The notes under the pieces were generated by a model. The model was not told the DNA's origin. It searched no databases and saw nothing but the letters and a program-made list of their open reading frames with translations. This document shows, piece by piece, positions 11,889 through 40,718 of a DNA stretch of 64,000 nucleotides. The stretch is taken from positions 1 through 64,000 of the forward strand of contig DATMBG010000017.1 of assembly GCA_035559535.1 (NCBI GenBank), in the 5' to 3' direction. Position 1 is the first letter of the stretch. Every line of letters starts with the position of its first letter. Source of the DNA: Candidatus Limnocylindrales bacterium (GTDB taxonomy: Bacteria > Moduliflexota > Moduliflexia > Moduliflexales > JAUQPW01). The translations under genes and the position numbers were made by a program.

Positions 11889-13556
11889 ATGAATACCAAA
11901 AAGGTTTTAGTTGTCGATGATAGCCTGATTGTCAAGGAGATCCTGACCTATTTGCTGACCGATCTGGGTTGTGAAGTCATTACTGCACAGGACGGGATTG
12001 AAGCCATTGAAAAGGTCTACCAGGAAAGCCCAGACCTCATTTTACTGGATGTTATGATGCCTCACATGAATGGTTATCAGGTTTGCCGATTGCTGAAAGA
12101 TGATAAAGATACCCGCCATATTCCCGTCGTATTTCTCACAGCCCAGGATCAACCCGCAGACCGATACTGGGGATTTATGGCCGGAGCCGATGAATATCTC
12201 ATCAAGGATCTGGAACACGAAAACCTCATCGAGCGGATCGAGAGTATTCTGAAACAGGTAGATACGACCGAGGAGCGGGCTCTCCGAAAGAAACCCCGTC
12301 AGGTAACCTCTGTGGATATTCTCTCTCAGGTAAATAATTTACTGGACCGTAAACTCTATCAGTCTACCATTGTAAACGAAATCAACCAGCTCGCCGTTTC
12401 CATGCAGAATTTTGAGGAGACTTTGAAATCTGTCTTTCAACTGTTAAGTCGAATTATACAATTTCAGATCGGCGTGGTTTCCATCATCGGACCTGATCTT
12501 CAAAAAATTTACCTCTACGTCCAGGATACTCTCCATCCTTCTTTATTAAATCAAATAAGTGCCTTGTTCCAGGAAGATAGTAAAAGTAAACAAACTTTCC
12601 TGGAGTTAAAAGGTCGTATTACAGAAACCTCATCACTTCGGACCCTTGCCAGCTATTGCAAAGTTCCCCTCATCAGTAAAGGGGGTCAGATTGGAAGTAT
12701 TCTGCTCGGGGATTCCAAGACGGGGAAGTTACTGGAGGAAGATCAGAACATTCTCAAAATAGCAGCCAAAGAAGCCGCGGTGGTGATCGATAATGCCCGA
12801 CTCTATGATTACAATGCGCAACTTTACATGGACCTGGAAAAAGAAATCCAGCAAATTTCCAGTATTCAAAGATCCCTCCTTCCCCATACCAACCCCCTGG
12901 AGCAATGGGTTGAGATCCAGTCTGTCATGATCCCTGCCCGTGAGGTTGGAGGGGATTATTATGATTACTTCCTCTTAAACGATCACAAACTGGCTATTAC
13001 CATTGGAGATGTCACAGGAAAAGGAGCACCGGCCTCTCTGCTGATGGCCATGGTGAAAACCGCTCTTCAGGTTAAAGTCAGTATAACTTCTGAACTTCCG
13101 GAACTACTCTCCTTTCTCAATGCATTTGTCCGGGATCAACGGGCAGGCCAGTATATGACCTTATTTTTTGGAATTCTGGATTTATCCCACCAGGTTTTCA
13201 CTTACGTGAATGCGGGTCATAACTTTCCGTATTTAGTCTCTCCATCAACTCAGAAACTCCAATTCCTGGAATCCAGCTTTCTACCCCTGGGACTCGAAAA
13301 GTCCGGTAAATATAGGGTTTCTAAACAGAAGATAAACCCGGAGGATTTTCTATTCTTTTATACCGACGGAATCGTGGAAGCCATGGATGAAAACAGGGAG
13401 TTATTCGGCTATGAACGGCTGGAAGAGATTCTTCTGAAGAACTGTCGGTTATCTTTAGAAGAGATTAAGCAACACGTCCTGGAAGGTGTTCAGGCTTTCT
13501 GTGGAACTGCACCTGTGGGGGATGACAGGACTTTGGTTTTGGTAAGATGCAAATAA
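11889..13556 (+). CDS. Receiver-GAF-PP2C (RsbU/SpoIIE-type) phosphatase
   Basis: A 555-residue regulator. The CheY-like receiver (1-125) has the acidic pair VVDDS, phospho-acceptor Asp54 in LLDVMMP, Thr in FLTAQ and Lys in YLIKDL, so it looks functional. A GAF-like sensor domain (about 165-310) follows. The C-terminal PPM/PP2C SpoIIE phosphatase (about 330-555) has EVGGDYYDYF, IGDVTGKGAPASLLMAM, YVNAGHNFPYL, FFYTDGIVEA and the final DDRTLVLVR. Such proteins dephosphorylate anti-sigma antagonists in partner-switching pathways. No STAS or HPK-type anti-sigma gene is in the window, so the target must be elsewhere. It is the last gene of the pspA operon. Confidence 0.93.
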   Translation: MNTKKVLVVDDSLIVKEILTYLLTDLGCEVITAQDGIEAIEKVYQESPDLILLDVMMPHMNGYQVCRLLKDDKDTRHIPVVFLTAQDQPADRYWGFMAGADEYLIKDLEHENLIERIESILKQVDTTEERALRKKPRQVTSVDILSQVNNLLDRKLYQSTIVNEINQLAVSMQNFEETLKSVFQLLSRIIQFQIGVVSIIGPDLQKIYLYVQDTLHPSLLNQISALFQEDSKSKQTFLELKGRITETSSLRTLASYCKVPLISKGGQIGSILLGDSKTGKLLEEDQNILKIAAKEAAVVIDNARLYDYNAQLYMDLEKEIQQISSIQRSLLPHTNPLEQWVEIQSVMIPAREVGGDYYDYFLLNDHKLAITIGDVTGKGAPASLLMAMVKTALQVKVSITSELPELLSFLNAFVRDQRAGQYMTLFFGILDLSHQVFTYVNAGHNFPYLVSPSTQKLQFLESSFLPLGLEKSGKYRVSKQKINPEDFLFFYTDGIVEAMDENRELFGYERLEEILLKNCRLSLEEIKQHVLEGVQAFCGTAPVGDDRTLVLVRCK

Positions 13557-14544: not shown

Positions 14545-16137
14545 TTAGGTATTCAAGCGTAAATCATCTATCCTCTTCATGGCTTCCATAAGGAGCTTGT
14601 GGGTTCCCATTTTAATTCGAGGTTCCCGGGTGAGAGGTTGAGGAATAAAATGGAAAGAGGCCTCTACCCAGGTTGCCAATTCCAGGAAAGCTTTTTCTCC
14701 TTGAAGATCTTTAACGGTGGCATCAATAATGTTTCCTTCCTTGATATAAATGTGACCTTCTTCGGTTTCTTTGGAAAACGTGAGGATACCGGTTTTTTGA
14801 GCGGCGTGAATGGTTTGAATAAGTTCTCCCAAGCCCATGGCGCTCAATTTCCCGGAAAAGCCTTTGCTGACTTCTTCACCGGCTTTAATGTTGGTTACCC
14901 GGAGACGTTGGGCCAGGAGTTTATGAAAGTAACGATTTAAGGCGGGAATTTCCTCCAGTATCTTTTCGAATTCGATTTTCTTAAGCGTGAACAGCTCCGT
15001 ATAAGTGGCCGCTTTAACGGTAGCCGAAGAAGGTTCTCCAGTAAGTAAAGACATCTCACCAAAACAATCCCCCGGTTTCAGAGTGGCCACCCGGGCTTCC
15101 CGAGTTCCCTCTTCGGTTAAAAGGATTTTAACAAAACCTTTTTTAATAATATAGAAGGTGCGACCCAATTCTCCTTCCTGGATAATGACGGCATCTTTAT
15201 CGAAGCTCTGAAGTTTGAGTTTTTGGCTGATCTTCTTTAAAGATTTACTGTCCAGGTTTTTAAAAATGTCATTGTTCTTTAGAATGAATTCCGGGGAGAT
15301 CTCTTTTTTATCAAATTCAGAGAACAAGTTTACAAGCTCAGCCGCCGTTTGATATCTCTGCCTGGGCTCTTTAGCCAGCATTTTTAAAATTATACCGTCT
15401 TTTTCAGAGGGAAACTTCTCATTGAGGGAAGAAGGTGGGAGGGGATTTCCTTCCAGAATGCTGGCCACCACCGATTTATAATCCTGTCCTTCAAAGGGTT
15501 TTCTCCCGGTCAACATCTCATAGAGGATGACGCCTAAAGAGAAAATATCCGATCGGGCATCGGGCGGATTTCCCTGGATCTGTTCTGGGGAAAGATAATA
15601 CAGGGTATTTCCTTCTTTGGGGGTAATGAGATTATAATCGAAAAAAGATCGGTGCAGCTCAAAATCAGTTATTTTAACTTTCTCTCCATTCCAATAAATA
15701 TTAAAGGGGTTAAGGAATTTATGGATAATACCCCGTTGATGAACATGTTCCAGAACTCTGCTGATCTGCAACGCAATATCTATAGCCTTCTCGATCGGAA
15801 AGGGTCTTTGGGATTTTAATTCATAAGCCAGGGTATTCCAGTCTATATCCTCCATAACGAGGTAGGCAAATTCCGTGTATTCAGTTTCTAAATAAGATTG
15901 TCTAAAGAACCTTCCCAGGTCATAGATCTTAACGATCTGGGGGTGTGAAAGCTTATCCGCCAGGATAACTCCCTGCTTAAACCCCTCTCGTATATTATCT
16001 TTATTCCGAATGATCGGCGTTATCCGTATAAGGACTTTCTCTTTAAGTACGGAATCAAATCCTCGATAAATGATGGAACGCCCCTCTTTCCGTAATTCTT
16101 CTATAAGCTTGTAGCGATCCGTTTGAGAAATGAACAT
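14545..16137 (-). CDS. Protein kinase-like (pseudokinase) + cNMP-binding + DUF4388 protein
   Basis: Three modules in 530 residues. Residues 8-270 have the Ser/Thr kinase fold with a clear C-lobe (SPEQIQG, SDIFSLGVILYEMLTG). Key catalytic residues are changed: the ATP-anchoring Lys is Arg38 (KVLIRI), the HRD triad reads His139-Lys-Phe141, and DFG reads DFE at 158-160. It is therefore probably a pseudokinase. Residues about 290-400 are a cyclic-nucleotide-binding domain with the FGEMSLLTGEPSSATVKA phosphate-binding cassette. The C-terminal 110 residues match DUF4388/PATAN (FSGKLSAMGLGELIQTIHA), common in bacterial signalling. The protein is cytoplasmic, monocistronic and has no membrane segment. 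It probably senses cAMP/cGMP or a related ligand and acts through protein contacts. Confidence 0.85.
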   Translation of the reverse strand: MFISQTDRYKLIEELRKEGRSIIYRGFDSVLKEKVLIRITPIIRNKDNIREGFKQGVILADKLSHPQIVKIYDLGRFFRQSYLETEYTEFAYLVMEDIDWNTLAYELKSQRPFPIEKAIDIALQISRVLEHVHQRGIIHKFLNPFNIYWNGEKVKITDFELHRSFFDYNLITPKEGNTLYYLSPEQIQGNPPDARSDIFSLGVILYEMLTGRKPFEGQDYKSVVASILEGNPLPPSSLNEKFPSEKDGIILKMLAKEPRQRYQTAAELVNLFSEFDKKEISPEFILKNNDIFKNLDSKSLKKISQKLKLQSFDKDAVIIQEGELGRTFYIIKKGFVKILLTEEGTREARVATLKPGDCFGEMSLLTGEPSSATVKAATYTELFTLKKIEFEKILEEIPALNRYFHKLLAQRLRVTNIKAGEEVSKGFSGKLSAMGLGELIQTIHAAQKTGILTFSKETEEGHIYIKEGNIIDATVKDLQGEKAFLELATWVEASFHFIPQPLTREPRIKMGTHKLLMEAMKRIDDLRLNT

Positions 16138-32885: not shown

Positions 32886-35800
32886 ATGTATCGAAAGATA
32901 GAGCTTGCTTTTTTAAGCCTGGAGCATCGGATTATTGAGCTTTTCCGATTAAACCGGATGTCCCATAATTTGATCTGGCTGGCCTTGGGACTTATTTTGT
33001 TTGTCTGGTTTATAAGTAAATGGCTCTTCTCGCTGCATCCGCAACCGGATACAGAGTTTGTACTGATTCGAGATCCTTCCATAGCCAGTGGCCATGCAGA
33101 AGTGTATTATGAAGATGGCTCCTTTTATCTGAAACCCCTCCATGGAAAAGTATTCTTCAATAGCCAGGAGGTGAACCGGGCTCTTCTCTTAAAGGAAGGT
33201 GATCAGTTTATCCTGGGTCATACCATTCTTCAGCTCAGGGATACCCACGGTTGGTTACCTCAGCTTAAAGTTGTGGGGTATTATCTAAATGAGCGTCTGC
33301 TCAATTCAAAAAAAATATCGGTCGGGCGGTCCCCTCGTCCGGAGGAGGAAAATAAATGGAAGCCTAATGATATTGTGGTTTCGGATACCTTCTTTGAACC
33401 GGTTCAGTTCTGGATTTTTCCCATAAAAGGAACCTCCGAAGCAACAGCTCCCTTAAGTTTTTTCATTGAAAACCGGGGTAAAAAAAGTATCGAGATTGAT
33501 CATGGGGATACCCAGGGTTGGAGTTCTGTTCGCAATAAGCAGCCCCTTAAAATGGGAGATAAAATCAGGGTCGGTGAAACCATCCTTCAGTTTGTTCCCG
33601 GTAGAACTGGAAGGGGAGTCGAATTGAAGATCCTTCGAGGTCTCACCCCAAGTTTTCGAGTTTATCTTGATAAACGCACGATTTTAAGCGGTTCAGATAC
33701 CATCCCGGGAGGATATATTCCCGATGCCCTGGTGGATGAAGAATTCCTGGAGAATGTTCGAAGGTGTATTGAAGCCCGGCTTATTTATCTCGTACACGAG
33801 ACCCAGAAACCTACCTCGGACCGAAGCGAAGGGGCAGAAAGAAAAAGATGGACGCAAGAAGGTGAAGGAGAAGAATCCTTTCTGAGTTTTCTACGGGTTA
33901 AAGGTTTTACAAAAGAAGGAAAACTCATGGCACCGGAGTTTGATGCGCTTACCAAGCGAGAAAAGCAACTCCTAGAAGGGGTATTTCGATTTTCCCCTAA
34001 AGAGGGCTCCCGACTCCGATGGAAAAGACCTTTTAATCGAAATCAAGAAGATCCCCACGTGTTTGACGGCACCGAACTGGAGAACTTTATCATAAAAGAT
34101 GATGAGCTAAAAGGAATTTATAATTTTGCAGCCCGACTATCCAATCCCCATAAACTTCAGAAGGAACTTCTGGTCCGAAGGGGTGTAATATATGATCGGG
34201 ATCAACAGACGCTCCCCCGATTGATTTTATCCAATCCCCAGGTATTGGAAAAGGTTCAACTGGTCAGTCAAAGTTCAGCCGGGGCCAATGCGGTCCCAAT
34301 CAAAGGACCTGTCCAGTTCTTATTGATAGATTATGACGATCCGAATACCGTACTTGAAATCAATCTAAATAAACCCCTGGAGAGTAAGATATATGTGGGT
34401 AGTGGCTATTTATTTATCCCTGGGGTAGGAAGGGGTTTAAAACCCGACCTTACGACAGAGATCCCCAAAACTCCCCCGACCTCGAAGGAGCGTATCATTG
34501 TCAGACGAATAGCAAACCAGGTTAAATTGGCATTGGGTTGTTTATTCAGCCGGCCGTCTGGACAAGCTGGGACCCGGCATATGCCCCCTCCACTCCCGTC
34601 GGATGGGGTAACAGATGGAGAATTTCCCGGTTCAAGTCTGTTACCCAATTATACCTGTACAGAAGAGAAGGAATTGGCGGACGGGGAAACCTTTGAGATA
34701 GGAGACTTAAGTTTTACTTATCAAAAGGGAGGTTCAGGACTTCTAGCCGGAAATAAAGAGTCTGATCCCGATAGACCAAAGGCCCAAGACGGGGGACAGA
34801 CCCGATATTATCCTTTAGGGGAAAAGCTGGTCCATGTGATCGGCTATGATTATCCCCGAAGTAATTTTAAAGCAAATCTGGAGGATATTTTTGATCAGGT
34901 ATTACTCGGGGAAGAGCGTAAGAAACCCTGGTATATGTTTACTTCCAGGTCAGACAGGCGGGTAGGGAACAACCTCATTCTGACTTTAGATGATGATCTT
35001 CAGCAGATTATTTATGAAGCTCTGAAGAAAAAACTGGATGAATTAAATCGGCGGGTAGAGGAGGGAAAGCAGAAACCCGATGAGCCGGAAATGAAGGATG
35101 AAGGTCCTGATGTAGAGAGCGAGGAATATTCCAAAGAAGCTGTCTTTCGGGGTGCTGCGGTTGCCATCAATTCAGACGGAGAGATTCTGGCTTCTGTGAG
35201 CCTTCCAACTTATAATCCTCACAATATCCATAGTATTCTGGCTGCCTTAAAAGAATCTTCTTTAGATAACTGGAATAGCTCTTTTATCAATAGAGCCTTT
35301 CACAAAACCTATCCGCCGGGATCAACCTTCAAACTCATCATGTCCTCCCTGGCCCTTGAGAACAAAGATCGGTTCCTGTGGGAAAATAAAAATTACTTGA
35401 TTAGAGATGGGGCTGGAGGATTTTACTGTACCGGAGTTTTGAGTAGTTTTGAAGGGGTCCGTATCGGTAAACCCATACCGGACTTTCGAGGTGGAAAGCA
35501 TGGAGGACCCTTGCATTTGGAAGATGCTCTGGCCCAATCTTGTAATAATGCCTTTGCTTTCCTGGCTCTAAAGGCTGGAAGTGACCTTATTACCCAGTAT
35601 GCCGAGCGATACGGGTTCAATCAACAGGACGATCTTTTACCTTTATCGGTATTTGAAGGGGATGTAAAAGCCATCGGACGTATCAACCGTGAAGAAGGGG
35701 ATACTCTATTTGCTCTTAAAAGCCAGGTACCCCTCCCGGAGGAAGATCTCCAGATGTCAAAGGTGGCCCGAATGGGGATTGGACAGTGGGAGATCCAGGC

Positions 35801-36344
35801 GACCCCCCTGGAGATGGCTTTGGTAGCTATGACCATTGGAAACTCCGGCTTGCGCCCTTATCCCCACCTGATCAAAGGAATCCAGGACGGGGAAACCGGG
35901 CAGATAAAATATTTCCACTACCCGGATAAAAAACGGGTTCTCTCTAGGGAAGCGGCTGAAGCCTTGAAGCCTATGATGCAAAAAGTCGTTCAGGAGGGGA
36001 CGGCCATTCGGATCTCCCTGAGTAAAATTCCCTACTACTCTTTAAAACACCATGTATTTGGGAAAACCGGTACTGCCGAAGTCCAGGGGGAAAACGGAAA
36101 AAAATCCAACATCGCCTGGTTTTTGAGTGTAGCCCCCATAGAAAACCCTAAGATAGCCATTGCCCTTGTCATCGAAAAAGGGGCCATCATCTCCCGAGAA
36201 CCTGTGATGGTTGCCCGAGATATTTGGGAAAAAACCGTGTTGCTCTACCACGATCAATTTCTCCCGGATAACGTTGAAACTCTTAAACCTTCCGAGCATC
36301 CAACGCTTCAGAAGCCTAAAGAACCGAAGAGTTTGAGAAGATAA
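32886..36344 (+). CDS. FHA-domain class B penicillin-binding protein (transpeptidase)
   Basis: The 1152-residue fusion has a single N-terminal membrane anchor (about 28-50) preceded by basic residues, so everything after it should be extracytoplasmic. An FHA domain follows (about 57-118; Arg62, Ser65 and His70 of the phospho-Thr pocket in LIRDPSIASGHAEV). A second FHA-like segment lies at about 140-237, and possibly a third ends near 612. The PBP dimerisation motif RRGVIYDRD starts at 431. The transpeptidase domain (about 690-1120) has Ser813 in STFK, SCN at 885 and KTGTAE at 1060, all intact. It cross-links peptidoglycan. It leads a cluster with a Ser/Thr kinase and PP2C phosphatase. Confidence 0.9.
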   Translation: MYRKIELAFLSLEHRIIELFRLNRMSHNLIWLALGLILFVWFISKWLFSLHPQPDTEFVLIRDPSIASGHAEVYYEDGSFYLKPLHGKVFFNSQEVNRALLLKEGDQFILGHTILQLRDTHGWLPQLKVVGYYLNERLLNSKKISVGRSPRPEEENKWKPNDIVVSDTFFEPVQFWIFPIKGTSEATAPLSFFIENRGKKSIEIDHGDTQGWSSVRNKQPLKMGDKIRVGETILQFVPGRTGRGVELKILRGLTPSFRVYLDKRTILSGSDTIPGGYIPDALVDEEFLENVRRCIEARLIYLVHETQKPTSDRSEGAERKRWTQEGEGEESFLSFLRVKGFTKEGKLMAPEFDALTKREKQLLEGVFRFSPKEGSRLRWKRPFNRNQEDPHVFDGTELENFIIKDDELKGIYNFAARLSNPHKLQKELLVRRGVIYDRDQQTLPRLILSNPQVLEKVQLVSQSSAGANAVPIKGPVQFLLIDYDDPNTVLEINLNKPLESKIYVGSGYLFIPGVGRGLKPDLTTEIPKTPPTSKERIIVRRIANQVKLALGCLFSRPSGQAGTRHMPPPLPSDGVTDGEFPGSSLLPNYTCTEEKELADGETFEIGDLSFTYQKGGSGLLAGNKESDPDRPKAQDGGQTRYYPLGEKLVHVIGYDYPRSNFKANLEDIFDQVLLGEERKKPWYMFTSRSDRRVGNNLILTLDDDLQQIIYEALKKKLDELNRRVEEGKQKPDEPEMKDEGPDVESEEYSKEAVFRGAAVAINSDGEILASVSLPTYNPHNIHSILAALKESSLDNWNSSFINRAFHKTYPPGSTFKLIMSSLALENKDRFLWENKNYLIRDGAGGFYCTGVLSSFEGVRIGKPIPDFRGGKHGGPLHLEDALAQSCNNAFAFLALKAGSDLITQYAERYGFNQQDDLLPLSVFEGDVKAIGRINREEGDTLFALKSQVPLPEEDLQMSKVARMGIGQWEIQATPLEMALVAMTIGNSGLRPYPHLIKGIQDGETGQIKYFHYPDKKRVLSREAAEALKPMMQKVVQEGTAIRISLSKIPYYSLKHHVFGKTGTAEVQGENGKKSNIAWFLSVAPIENPKIAIALVIEKGAIISREPVMVARDIWEKTVLLYHDQFLPDNVETLKPSEHPTLQKPKEPKSLRR

Positions 36345-36402
36345 AGTATAAACCTGTTAAAAGGATTAAAGACGGGTTTTTTGAAAAGACCTATGAGGAA
36401 TT

Positions 36403-37872
36403 ATGACTATCGAGGCTTTTATTACTGCAAAATCCAAAGGCCGCTATCAGGACATTACCGAAATGCACTATGAAGAGGGCGGCTTTGGCAGGCTTTATAA
36501 AGCTAAAGATTCTCATCGAAATGGAGCGGAAGTTTGTATTAAAGTCATTAAACCCAATTTGCCCCGGGATCTTCAATTAAAACTCTGGCAGGATGAAGTT
36601 CGTGCGCTCAGCAAGTATGCCAGACGCTCGAATATAGCCAACCTGGTCGACAAACCTTACGAATTTACAGACCAGGATCCTTACCTGTTTTTTGTTATGG
36701 AATATGTGCACGGAGACCGGTTGGGTTCCAGTAAGTATAAGATCGAGCTAAATTTGGAACAAGACCTTGCCGTGCTTGCACTCTTCCAGCTCTGTTCCGC
36801 AGTTTATAGTATTCACCAGCGGGGGGAGTACCATCAAGATATTTTTCCAGATAACATTAAAATGGACGGAGATAATCTGATTCTGTTGGATATGGGAGGT
36901 ATGCGGGAAGCTGCAAGGCGGTCCGGCACGGTTATCTTTGGAGGGGAAATCTATTCGGCTCCAGAAGTATCCCCTACCCGACTTAGAATCAAAAAATTCC
37001 GAACTCTGCGAAAAAGTAAAATGGGGAGTTTCGAAACAGCCGATATTTTTTCTATTGGAGCTATTTTTTATGAAATGATCACGGGGAAAACTTTTTTTGA
37101 CAACCCCGATGAGTCCAATCAATTGAAAGAATTTATTTATGATTACTACGCTGAGTTGCCCGAGATTACTCCGCCGGCCGGTGTAGATATCAAGACCCAT
37201 AAGGCCGAACTCATCAAGCAGCTCATCAAAATGAAACAGGAATACGGAAGTATTATCCGGAAATATGTTCAAAGAATGGAGAACTACAAAAATTTCCTGG
37301 ATAAGCAAGGGTTTTCTCAGACACTGGCCGAGCTTCTTACCAATACCTTATCCATATTCCCACCGGAACGTCCAAAAGCAGAGGAAATTCTTACGGCCCT
37401 TTTCTCCTATTTGATGAAACAGGCAAAAAAACATTTCTCAAAAGGGGATTGGGAGGCGGCTCTCCGGGACTTCAAACATCTCGAACGGCATTTTGATGAA
37501 ATCGCTTTGGAAAGCGAGGATGAAGATCCCCTTTTTAGGGAGCGGATGATCCGACACTTGCAGACTCACCTGGACTTGTATTTGAAGGTCTGTCTGGGGT
37601 CCGGTGCGACGCTCTTTCACTCGGGCTCTTTCACCCTGGCAAGGGATAAATTTCTCAAAGCCGAAACTATCCTGATGCAACAATCCCAGGTTCTTTCGGT
37701 TAAAGCACGAGAAACCTATATTTTGAAGATTCGTAACAACTTAGCCGCCTGTACCTTTATGTCCGGTCAGATTAAAAAGGCTACGGAAGAGTTTGAGCGT
37801 CTTTTAAAGGCGGTAGAAGGGACCAGTCCAATTGTACGAAATAATTTGGCAGTTTGTGCCAGGTATCAATGA
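36403..37872 (+). CDS. Ser/Thr protein kinase with C-terminal TPR-like region
   Basis: Residues about 10-330 form a eukaryotic-type kinase domain: glycine loop EGGFGRLYKAKD, Lys in VCIKVIKP, and catalytic loop HQDIFPDNIKM (HRD written HQD, Asp and Asn kept). The metal motif reads LLDMGG and an APE-like SAPEV is present. It looks active. A long insertion follows in the C-lobe (DYYAELPEITPPAGVDIK...). Residues about 345-489 are helical TPR-like repeats (FSKGDWEAALRDFKHLERHF). There is no transmembrane segment or PASTA domain, so the kinase is cytoplasmic. It sits 58 nt after the FHA-PBP gene and before the PP2C gene. Confidence 0.92.
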   Translation: MTIEAFITAKSKGRYQDITEMHYEEGGFGRLYKAKDSHRNGAEVCIKVIKPNLPRDLQLKLWQDEVRALSKYARRSNIANLVDKPYEFTDQDPYLFFVMEYVHGDRLGSSKYKIELNLEQDLAVLALFQLCSAVYSIHQRGEYHQDIFPDNIKMDGDNLILLDMGGMREAARRSGTVIFGGEIYSAPEVSPTRLRIKKFRTLRKSKMGSFETADIFSIGAIFYEMITGKTFFDNPDESNQLKEFIYDYYAELPEITPPAGVDIKTHKAELIKQLIKMKQEYGSIIRKYVQRMENYKNFLDKQGFSQTLAELLTNTLSIFPPERPKAEEILTALFSYLMKQAKKHFSKGDWEAALRDFKHLERHFDEIALESEDEDPLFRERMIRHLQTHLDLYLKVCLGSGATLFHSGSFTLARDKFLKAETILMQQSQVLSVKARETYILKIRNNLAACTFMSGQIKKATEEFERLLKAVEGTSPIVRNNLAVCARYQ

Positions 37873-37873
37873 A

Positions 37874-37944
37874 GATCCGTTGTGTGTTGTCTGTTGTTTT
37901 TTGTTACGGTATCAAATAACGGACAACGGATAGCGGACGACGAA
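37874..37944. repeat. Heptamer inverted repeat between kinase and PP2C genes
   Basis: Left arm units of CCGTTGT, GTGTTGT and CTGTTGT face right arm units TAACGGA, CAACGGA and TAGCGGA with 7-nt phasing. The TTG start of the phosphatase lies immediately downstream. Confidence 0.6.
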
Positions 37945-37946
37945 GC

Positions 37947-38711
37947 TTGCTTTCTTTTCAAAGTTACGTGAGTAGTCAGCCGGGACCAAAAAGGGCTTTC
38001 AATGAAGACAGTTATCTGGTAAGTACAGAACTGGGTCTTCCTAAAGATCTTTTGACGCGGTGTGGAATCCTCTACGCTGTGGCCGATGGAATGAGTGGTC
38101 ATGCGGCGGGTCAGGTGGCAAGCAAATTGGCTGTAACCACACTGAAAGAGTATTACACTCAACCCAATTTTAATTTATCCCCTCTAAACAGATTGGAAGC
38201 TCTTTTTCAGAATGCCCACGAGAAAATATTAGCAACTGCCTATCGTAACGCGGCCTATAAGGGAATGGGCACGACCCTTACGGCAGTGGTACTTAAAGAG
38301 GGTTGGCTTTATTACGGACATGTAGGAGATAGTCGACTGTATCTTATTACGGGTGCTACGGGAAGGTTGGAACAGATAACCTATGACCATACGCTGGTCG
38401 CCCGATACCTTCGAGAAGGAAAATTAAGTGCGCAAGAAGCTGAACAAGAAGACAGTAGCATTTTGGAACAGGCCCTGGGATTTACCCGAAACGTGAAAAT
38501 CGATTTGGGCCAACTGGCTATCAAATCCGGAGACTATATTATCCTGGCGACCGATGGTTTAACCAAATCGGTATCGGTATCTAAGATGAAATCGATTGTC
38601 TTAAACTCTCAGGATGCTGAAGATATTTGTAAAAAGCTGGTTAGAAAAGCCACCGAGAATGGGTTAATCGATGATATCACAGTTATTGTCATTGAGGTTG
38701 TGGGAGATTGA
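37947..38711 (+). CDS. PP2C-family Ser/Thr protein phosphatase
   Basis: A 254-residue stand-alone PPM phosphatase of the Stp/PstP type. Motifs in order: RAFNEDSYL, AVADGMSGHAAGQVAS, GMGTTLTAVVL, GHVGDSRLYLI, ILATDGLTKSVS and DDITVIVIEV. All metal-binding aspartates are present. It should reverse the action of the kinase encoded just upstream. The start is uncertain: TTG at 37947 fits the family N-terminus (a beta strand before the NED motif), while a GTG at 37968 would remove that strand. It is cytoplasmic, with no membrane segment. The next gene begins 1 nt after its stop. Confidence 0.93.
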   Translation: MLSFQSYVSSQPGPKRAFNEDSYLVSTELGLPKDLLTRCGILYAVADGMSGHAAGQVASKLAVTTLKEYYTQPNFNLSPLNRLEALFQNAHEKILATAYRNAAYKGMGTTLTAVVLKEGWLYYGHVGDSRLYLITGATGRLEQITYDHTLVARYLREGKLSAQEAEQEDSSILEQALGFTRNVKIDLGQLAIKSGDYIILATDGLTKSVSVSKMKSIVLNSQDAEDICKKLVRKATENGLIDDITVIVIEVVGD

Positions 38712-38712
38712 A

Positions 38713-39372
38713 ATGCTGCCGATTTTAATTCCTCTTGTGACCATGATTCTGGCGGGGGTTTTAATCTTTATCTTCCTGAAAGATCGGGAAGCCAATCTGG
38801 CCATCATTTACTATAATACCGGCGTTTCCTATCTCCAAACAGGAGAGGCCGATAAGGCCATTGCTCAGTTTCAGAAAGCCCTGGAAAAAAATAAATCTTT
38901 ACTGGATGCGCATTATGGTCTTGGACTTGCATATGCTTCTGAAGAAAAATACCCGGAGGCCATTCAAGAGCTTGAATTTGTCCTCAGACAAAAACCTATG
39001 AACCCGGTCATTTATTACAATCTGGGAAGCATATATCTATATGCCGGAAATTATAACCAGGCCCTGGCCAATTTTGAAAAGGCCGTGGCTTTAAAGCCCC
39101 GAATCAAAGAACTTTACTTTAATTTGGGATGGATTTTGAGAGAAAAAGGCGACTGGGCCGGAGCCAGGGAAAACTTTTTAAAGGCTCTGGAACTGGATAG
39201 TCAATATCAGAAGGCCCAGAATTATTTAAACCTCCTGGAAACCCTGGAAAAGGAAAAGAAAAAAGCCGAAATACCCGTGATCCTCAAACACTTTGACAAA
39301 GCAGATACGGAATTTATGATTCAGCTCGATCCCGATCGAAAACCCGAAGGCCCGCGAACTATCGCCTTTTAA
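38713..39372 (+). CDS. Membrane-anchored TPR-repeat protein
   Basis: The 219-residue protein begins with a membrane segment (MLPILIPLVTMILAGVLIFIFL) followed by about four TPR units: YYNTGVSYLQTGEADKAIAQ, AHYGLGLAYASEEKYPEAIQ, IYYNLGSIYLYAGNYNQALA and LYFNLGWILREKGDWAGARE. A charged tail follows. The ATG at 38713 with GGGAG 8 nt upstream is chosen over the overlapping ATG at 38671, which would only add residues shadowing the phosphatase end. It is tightly coupled to the PP2C gene. It probably acts as a protein-interaction anchor for the kinase/phosphatase system at the membrane. Confidence 0.88.
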   Translation: MLPILIPLVTMILAGVLIFIFLKDREANLAIIYYNTGVSYLQTGEADKAIAQFQKALEKNKSLLDAHYGLGLAYASEEKYPEAIQELEFVLRQKPMNPVIYYNLGSIYLYAGNYNQALANFEKAVALKPRIKELYFNLGWILREKGDWAGARENFLKALELDSQYQKAQNYLNLLETLEKEKKKAEIPVILKHFDKADTEFMIQLDPDRKPEGPRTIAF

Positions 39373-39477
39373 AAGGACTATGCAAGGAGGAAAGCATGGG
39401 GAAGTAGGAATGTGTAGAGAGGGAATCTATTTTTCTCTACTTCCACAAGCTTATCCTTTTTATTTATTTTGCTTATA

Positions 39478-40626
39478 ATGAAGGATTACGAACCTTTAAT
39501 TATTGACTTAAAGAAGAGCGATCCTATACGGAGTGCGCGCGGCTCTCTCACTTTGTTTTTGCTGGCTTTACTGATGGGGATTGTGAGTGCTACGACGTTT
39601 TTAATCTTTACGCTTTATAAAACCCCTTCTCTAACCCCTTCTTCAGAAATCATCCATCTTAAAACGGAAGGACCGACTGGAAAGGTTGCTGCAAAACAGG
39701 AATCTCCTCCTTTACTACCTACCGAGACTCCCAAGGCAGAGTCTATGCAACAAGCTGCCCGGGGTTCAGATTCTGGAAGTTCAGATCGCAAAGACTCTTC
39801 CACCCGACCTCCAGAACCTAAGCTTTCCCCAAAGCCGACAGAGGAGGCTTCTGCCGGGTTGGACAAAACTATTGCCGCCACTCCAATTCCTAAGAAAGAT
39901 AAAGGAACGGGCTCCCGCCCAGGGGATAAACCTTCCCCGGCAGGGGAGATGAAGGTCTCAGAACTGAAAGGCAATTCCGAAGAGTCTTCAGAACGTATAC
40001 GCTCCGATAGGTTTTCTTTATGGGGCGAAATTAAAGCGGCAGAACAGAAAGGGGGCCTGGGAGACCGTACCGAGCGGGGACGCCCCGATAGAAATCGGAT
40101 ACCAGAACCCATGGGTTTCGGATTTATAACCGTTCGCACCATACCGGAAAATGTTTCGGTTTATCTCAATGAAAGGTTAATAGGCATCACCCCTCTCATC
40201 GAATTCCAGGTCCCGGCCGGCCGACATGAACTCAAACTCATTTACAAGGATGCGCCCCCGATTTCTCAATTGATTACCGTGAATCCTTTAGATACGGTTT
40301 CGGTTTTCCAGAGATTTGAGAACATGGGAACCCTTATTATAAATTCCTCAAGTTCTGGAGCCGAGGTTTCTTTAGACGGAACCTATCGAGGCCAGACCCC
40401 TCTGACTATTGAAGATTTGCCCACGGGAACTTATCGGCTAATGGTCCGAAAGGATGGATTTGAGACGGTTACACGGACCATTGAAGTCGTTGATGGAAAA
40501 GCAACCGAAGTATTTGTAACCCTTAAACGTCTGGGAGTGCCCTATCCCGATCGAAGACCTTTCCCGCGTATGGGATTTCCCAATAGATTTCCAGGAGAAC
40601 GGCGTCCGGAAAGACCTTACCGATAG
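39478..40626 (+). CDS. Membrane-anchored PEGA-domain protein
   Basis: About 382 residues. A cytoplasmic stub is followed by a transmembrane helix (about 25-45; FLLALLMGIVSATTFLIFTL), a Pro/Ser/Lys-rich disordered region (about 50-215), and two PEGA beta domains. The first has TIPENVSVYLNERLIGITPL, and the second begins LIINSSSSGAEVSLDGTYRG and continues to TPLTIEDLPTGTYRLMV. PEGA domains usually lie outside the membrane and often occur next to bacterial Ser/Thr kinases. The ATG at 39478 is preferred over a TTG at 39469. The proline-rich spacer would let the PEGA domains reach into the wall. It closes the FHA-PBP/kinase/phosphatase cluster. Confidence 0.88.
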   Translation: MKDYEPLIIDLKKSDPIRSARGSLTLFLLALLMGIVSATTFLIFTLYKTPSLTPSSEIIHLKTEGPTGKVAAKQESPPLLPTETPKAESMQQAARGSDSGSSDRKDSSTRPPEPKLSPKPTEEASAGLDKTIAATPIPKKDKGTGSRPGDKPSPAGEMKVSELKGNSEESSERIRSDRFSLWGEIKAAEQKGGLGDRTERGRPDRNRIPEPMGFGFITVRTIPENVSVYLNERLIGITPLIEFQVPAGRHELKLIYKDAPPISQLITVNPLDTVSVFQRFENMGTLIINSSSSGAEVSLDGTYRGQTPLTIEDLPTGTYRLMVRKDGFETVTRTIEVVDGKATEVFVTLKRLGVPYPDRRPFPRMGFPNRFPGERRPERPYR

Positions 40627-40629
40627 AAA

Positions 40630-40718
40630 CTGGAGACTAGAAGTAAGAGGCAAGAGGCAGGAGGCAAGAAACTCGGCTTCTTGCTTCTTACTTCTTACTT
40701 CTTGCTTCTTGCTTCTAG
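40630..40718. repeat. Heptamer inverted repeat before the aminotransferase gene
   Basis: The left arm has purine-rich heptamers (AGTAAGA, GGCAAGA, GGCAGGA, GGCAAGA). The right arm has CTTCTTG/CTTCTTA units five times. Together they form a hairpin of over 30 bp with mismatches. It ends 5 nt before the ATG at 40723. Confidence 0.75.

Follow-up and report, generated by a model that had tools for sequence, protein, structure and literature searches.

The closest described counterpart of the locus reported here is the actinobacterial fhaA-fhaB-pstP-rodA-pbpA-pknA-pknB locus, in which a PbpA-type transpeptidase and a RodA-type SEDS protein are accompanied by Hanks-type kinases, a PP2C phosphatase, and proteins with FHA domains, which commonly read phosphothreonine. 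Further points of comparison are the PASTA kinase/PP2C pairs (PrkC/PrpC and Stk1/Stp1) and the class B penicillin-binding proteins (PBPs) PBP2/MrdA and FtsI. The mycobacterial pstP gene shares a transcript with rodA and pbpA, and PbpA has been reported to be a phosphoprotein and to be dephosphorylated by PstP in vitro (PMC6554272); these data supply a precedent for a link between a kinase-phosphatase cassette and a PBP/SEDS pair. The candidate phylum KSB3, from which our locus comes, is reported to comprise filamentous, gliding, Gram-negative (diderm) fermenters whose genomes carry unusually numerous signaling genes (PMC4312070).

The window analyzed here, a stretch of 64,000 nt, belongs to the KSB3 genome G000. 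It was compared with three further genomes of the phylum, G001 from the same genus, whose proteins are about 94% identical to those of the window, and G002 and G003 from a second family of the same order. This set of four includes UASB270, one of the two KSB3 genomes in the 2015 study (PMC4312070), and DOLJORAL78_50_49, while outgroup searches covered 285 genomes from outside KSB3. Open reading frames and Pfam searches confirmed the position, strand, order, and domains of all five genes that a preliminary description had placed in one peptidoglycan-control cluster (Table 1). That description, however, merged two units, a kinase cassette and an FHA-bearing PBP (FHA-PBP). The reading we consider probable is that a KSB3 Ser/Thr phosphorylation cassette stands side by side with the transpeptidase of a PbpA/RodA-type synthase, as a dispersed variant of the PbpA/RodA/kinase association in which a split PEGA and TPR receptor takes the place of a PASTA kinase. 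Elsewhere in the window, a plus-strand gene (11889-13556) encodes a response regulator with GAF and SpoIIE-type phosphatase domains, and a minus-strand gene (14545-16137) encodes a second kinase, fused in an unusual combination to a cyclic-nucleotide-binding domain and DUF4388.

Table 1. Predicted features of the FHA-PBP gene and the adjoining four-gene cassette, in coordinates of the window.
Feature	Coordinates	Strand	Basis
FHA-PBP, class B PBP of PbpA type, 1152 aa	32886..36344	+	ORF, Pfam, PDB matches, tree
Sole predicted transmembrane helix of FHA-PBP, aa 25-51	32958..33038	+	Hydropathy, 4/4 orthologs
FHA-like domain 1 (FHA1), about aa 58-119	33057..33242	+	Pfam FHA 37 bits, residue alignment
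FHA-like domain 2 (FHA2), about aa 124-251	33255..33638	+	Pfam FHA in G002 ortholog, alignments, low-confidence model
Class B anchor motif RGVIYDR, aa 432-438	34179..34199	+	Motif scan; invariant in alignment
Third beta-rich FHA-like insert (tentative), aa 478-613	34317..34724	+	Low-confidence model strands, conserved G/L/F pattern
Transpeptidase domain, about aa 754-1121	35145..36248	+	Pfam and alignment
Hanks-type protein kinase, 489 aa, C-terminal TPR-like tail	36403..37872	+	Pfam, hydropathy, alignment
PP2C-type Ser/Thr phosphatase, Stp1/IreP-like	37947..38711	+	PP2C_2 1e-15; 213 bits
Membrane-anchored TPR protein	38671..39372 (more likely start 38713)	+	Pfam TPR 1e-27, hydropathy, alignment
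Bitopic PEGA protein	39469..40626 (more likely start 39478)	+	Pfam, hydropathy, alignment

The two units are separated by their conservation. Between 32886 and 40626 the intergenic gaps measure, in gene order, 58, 74, -41, and 96 nt, which by their length alone would be small enough for one or two transcripts; promoter and terminator scans of the cluster performed at chance level, and a terminator-like stem lies at 40659-40689, 3' of the PEGA gene. The preliminary description had proposed a search for conserved synteny and had named lack of conservation as a ground for abandoning its interpretation. The five-gene cluster proved to be confined to one genus, whereas the kinase-TPR, PP2C, membrane TPR, and PEGA genes are collinear and co-oriented in each of the four KSB3 genomes (the window, L022, L079, and L080), with spacings of -41 to 106 nt in the relatives. 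The PBP adjoins this cassette, on the same strand, only in the window and G001, two linkages that do not count as independent evidence because the PBPs are 94% identical. In G002 and G003, the FHA-PBP gene lies on a different contig from the cassette and is followed by a gene for a 354-aa protein, absent from G000 and G001, in one of whose two copies a phosphodiester-glycosidase-like domain was recognized. Since the PBP and kinase are linked in just two closely related genomes, the association of the two units may be accidental. A cassette unrelated to the wall that happens to adjoin a PBP in one genus would also fit a phylum rich in signaling genes, with several kinases per genome. Against such a coincidence, which we regard as unlikely though not negligible, stand the PBP-kinase gap of only 58-60 nt, within which no terminator was found, the repeated linkage of PbpA/RodA pairs elsewhere to kinase, PP2C, and FHA genes (PMC6554272; reference loci), and the FHA proteins beside the matching SEDS gene in both KSB3 families, described below.

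Within the cassette, the kinase is well supported by Pfam (Pkinase, 5e-27), while the match of its TPR tail is weak. Its predicted catalytic set (K47, E65, HQD146 of the HxDxxxxN motif, and D163-x-G) is invariant in all four orthologs, with the arginine of the HRD motif replaced by glutamine (HQD). Identity across the two KSB3 families is about 50%, and a profile built from the four kinases scored about 900 bits in the KSB3 orthologs and about 250 bits for a paralog in the window's genus, but at most 76 bits in the 285 genomes outside KSB3, where no close relative was found. Unlike the kinases of the actinobacterial locus, this kinase is predicted to be soluble: hydropathy gave no membrane helix, and Pfam and family models gave no PASTA domain. 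Against the PASTA-kinase model (PrkC/PknB/Stk1) it scored 66 bits, compared with a cut-off of 450. Pfam and family-model searches found no PASTA domain in any of the other four proteins either, in agreement with the preliminary description. The neighboring PP2C recalls the adjoining kinase and phosphatase genes of PrkC/PrpC and Stk1/Stp1, but its 213 bits against the Stp1_PP2C_phos model fall below the cut-off of 230, and it differs from its actinobacterial counterpart in showing no membrane helix by hydropathy. A search for anti-phage defense systems with PADLOC returned generic kinase matches only, and a defense reading was rejected.

The two remaining cassette proteins, both predicted to be membrane-bound, are additions relative to the actinobacterial locus; the diderm host is a further difference. 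The TPR protein carries a single N-terminal helix and, toward its C-terminus, the conserved motif D-x-x-D-(T/A)-E-F-(L/M)-I-x-L. Because positive residues follow the helix, its TPRs probably face the cytoplasm, an orientation read from charge only. In the PEGA protein (Pfam PEGA, 6e-32, in two stretches), the predicted layout runs from a conserved cytoplasmic tail, Y-(E/D)-P-(L/M)..., through one helix and a Pro/Ser-rich linker to two PEGA domains on the outside. Sensing, which in Gram-positive PASTA kinases belongs to the kinase itself, would in KSB3 fall to this separate protein. Such parts might instead belong to a gliding apparatus or another envelope machine that the cassette regulates, with the PBP shared or unrelated; KSB3 filaments do glide (PMC4312070), and the TPR protein weakly matches TPR families of motility and envelope function. 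These matches are generic, however, and no recognizable motility gene lies beside the cassette in the neighborhoods read, in which most neighbors were judged by eye, so we hold this explanation to be improbable. Taken together, the regulatory modules, namely a soluble TPR-tailed kinase and TPR and PEGA membrane proteins without PASTA domains, look lineage-specific in these sequence comparisons.

Contig C32 of the window's genome holds a related arrangement. At about 91000-100000 (L084:7028-15990), a gene for a large FHA protein is closely followed by those for a paralogous kinase and a PP2C; farther downstream come a 445-aa protein without a Pfam match and then a protein with both TPR and PEGA domains, a few kb past the kinase-PP2C pair. 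This set may represent another version of the cassette in the window, and the proximity of its kinase-PP2C pair to a TPR and PEGA protein favors the view that the four kinds of part are functionally linked. As a separate observation, in G003 the kinase cassette is preceded, at a distance of about 530 nt, by a gene that by eye resembles one for alanine racemase, an enzyme of wall precursor synthesis (L080:7671-8804); it was not seen at this position in the other genomes.

The second unit, FHA-PBP, has the single N-terminal helix, the anchor motif, and the SxxK, SxN, and KTG motifs of a class B PBP (S813TFK, S885CN, and K1060TGT), with strong Pfam matches to Transpeptidase (9e-43) and weaker ones to FHA (4e-9). 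In the class B PBP tree, its transpeptidase domain grouped with actinobacterial-type PbpA (support 99/98), and a forced grouping with PBP2 was rejected (AU test, p=0.001). Its best relatives among solved structures include PbpA of M. tuberculosis. Each of the four KSB3 genomes encodes one copy of the protein, which in the window's genome is the third class B PBP, besides a PBP2 that adjoins RodA and an FtsI in a cluster with FtsW. The reference locus L028 served in the tree only as an actinobacterial-type reference; it bears the label of a Bifidobacterium breve MAG, yet its PbpA very closely resembles the one on a Solirubrobacteraceae contig, and the L028 contig is probably mislabeled or contaminated.

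What sets FHA-PBP apart from PBP2/MrdA and FtsI is a long FHA-like segment that separates the helix from the anchor, amounting to 330-360 extra residues relative to actinobacterial PbpA. The anchor RGxIxDR accordingly lies at aa 405-437 in the FHA-PBPs, compared with aa 52-86 in those reference class B PBPs in which the motif was found and the start is reliable. Five Lys/Arg residues precede the helix, which predicts an inside N-terminus, a pattern shared by all four orthologs, and downstream of it no segment in the four orthologs reaches the hydropathy threshold. Placed between helix and anchor, the FHA segment would share the outer side of the membrane with the transpeptidase; on the strength of hydropathy, and of a transpeptidase having to be outside, the FHA-like domains should thus be extracytoplasmic. 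FHA1 is without the GR loop, and its Ser/His/Asn binding positions are not conserved, while the degenerate FHA2 keeps an invariant GR148 and is missing the Ser/His/Asn positions. Compared with phosphothreonine-binding FHA domains, which combine Arg, Ser, and Asn/His residues with a cytoplasmic site, both domains differ in residues and in predicted topology, and neither is expected to bind phosphothreonine. The tentative third insert has no Pfam match. For the N-terminal region, searches of the 285 genomes outside KSB3 returned generic FHA matches only, and a profile of the FHA region brought no useful match among solved structures. A model of the FHA region alone (pLDDT 57) had mostly FHA domains as its top Foldseek matches, none below E=0.001; for the whole PBP, an AlphaFold2 model built on four sequences had a mean pLDDT of 36 and was set aside.

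These features bear directly on the link from kinase through FHA domains to PBP that the preliminary description had implied. In an integrated system of this kind, the kinase would phosphorylate a partner read by the PBP's own FHA domains, giving direct control of a wall enzyme, and both the adjacency of PBP and kinase on one strand in the window and G001 and the usual role of FHA domains as phosphothreonine readers would agree with it. The single N-terminal helix, however, predicts FHA and transpeptidase domains to be both outside, the residues that would bind phosphothreonine are absent or unconserved, and in the sister family the PBP gene is not linked to that of the kinase. Predicted topology and residue loss therefore contradict a direct kinase-to-FHA link, and we consider the integrated system the least probable of the explanations. 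The FHA-like tandem more probably forms a membrane-proximal pedestal or contact surface that would act independently of phosphate. At title and abstract level, the literature held nothing specific on FHA-bearing PBPs or on PEGA/TPR/kinase systems.

The preliminary description noted the absence of RodA/FtsW and suggested a search for a partner; none is indeed present in the cluster, but the genome as a whole contains three SEDS genes, one adjoining PBP2, one in the FtsI/FtsW cluster, and an orphan (SEDS3; 503 aa, contig C22) without an adjacent class B PBP. SEDS3 is of the type found in PbpA loci: it groups, with 100/100 support, with the RodAs of loci carrying FHA, PP2C, or PbpA genes. At three of those loci, PbpA adjoins the SEDS gene and FhaA-like, FHA, or PP2C matches lie on its opposite side, and L028 combines FhaA-like, RodA, PbpA, and kinase genes. 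SEDS3 is also single-copy in all four KSB3 genomes, one-to-one with FHA-PBP. From this co-occurrence and phylogeny, we infer that it is probably the glycosyltransferase partner of FHA-PBP. FHA proteins accompany it in both families: in the window's genus, an FhaA_N-FHA protein, found only in G000 and G001, lies 4.6 kb from SEDS3, and in the second family an FHA protein of 646-649 aa is encoded directly upstream. On the 3' side of SEDS3 come two further genes. The first encodes a DUF4388 protein, which in the window's genome also carries a partial response-regulator domain, and the second a product of 90-94 aa that has no Pfam match; with SEDS3 they form a trio (L021:9303-12882; equivalents in L082 and L083) conserved in all four genomes and both families.

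Set against the actinobacterial locus, KSB3 thus has the same kinds of enzyme, a PbpA-type transpeptidase, a RodA-type SEDS3, a PP2C, and a Hanks kinase, and in the window's genus the same placement of an FhaA_N-FHA protein near a SEDS gene. It differs in that the genes are dispersed over contigs, the matching RodA is not beside PbpA, and no cytoplasmic FhaA or FhaB stands beside the PBP, the FhaA_N-FHA protein being near SEDS3 instead. The parallel drawn in the preliminary description is therefore real, and closer than claimed as regards PBP and SEDS3, which are homologous to PbpA and RodA, although FhaA/FhaB, RodA, and a PASTA kinase are not in the locus; for the same reason, independent evolution does not apply to the enzymes, while the regulatory parts differ and look lineage-specific. 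The original interpretation is partly supported: the likeness, homologous core enzymes, and KSB3-specific regulators stand, with linkage at genus level only.

Under the two-unit reading that we favor, the cassette would work as a transmembrane receptor kinase split into separate proteins. The outer domains of the PEGA protein would contact and sense the envelope, the TPR adaptor would hold kinase and PP2C at the cytoplasmic side of the membrane, and the kinase would then phosphorylate cytoplasmic targets, with PP2C as its phosphatase. FHA-PBP and SEDS3 would form a third wall-synthesis pair, of PbpA/RodA type. Should the kinase control this pair, it would most likely act on the cytoplasmic face of the membrane, bypassing the FHA domains of the PBP; candidate routes are SEDS3, the FhaA_N-FHA protein, the large FHA protein by SEDS3, and the 24-residue N-terminal tail of the PBP. 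More tentatively, and with some doubt, KSB3 may have rebuilt kinase control of a PbpA/RodA pair, with a split receptor kinase and with degenerate FHA domains moved outside as an assembly pedestal. If so, these would be, to our knowledge, the first extracytoplasmic FHA folds in a PBP.

The association of PbpA, RodA, FHA proteins, and kinases is usually discussed for Gram-positive actinobacteria. That an uncultured diderm phylum has its core enzymes but other sensor and reader modules allows a natural experiment on which parts kinase control of wall synthesis cannot do without. FHA-like folds, normally cytoplasmic phospho-readers, would here lie beyond the reach of the kinase, a warning that FHA annotation alone is no proof of phospho-signaling.
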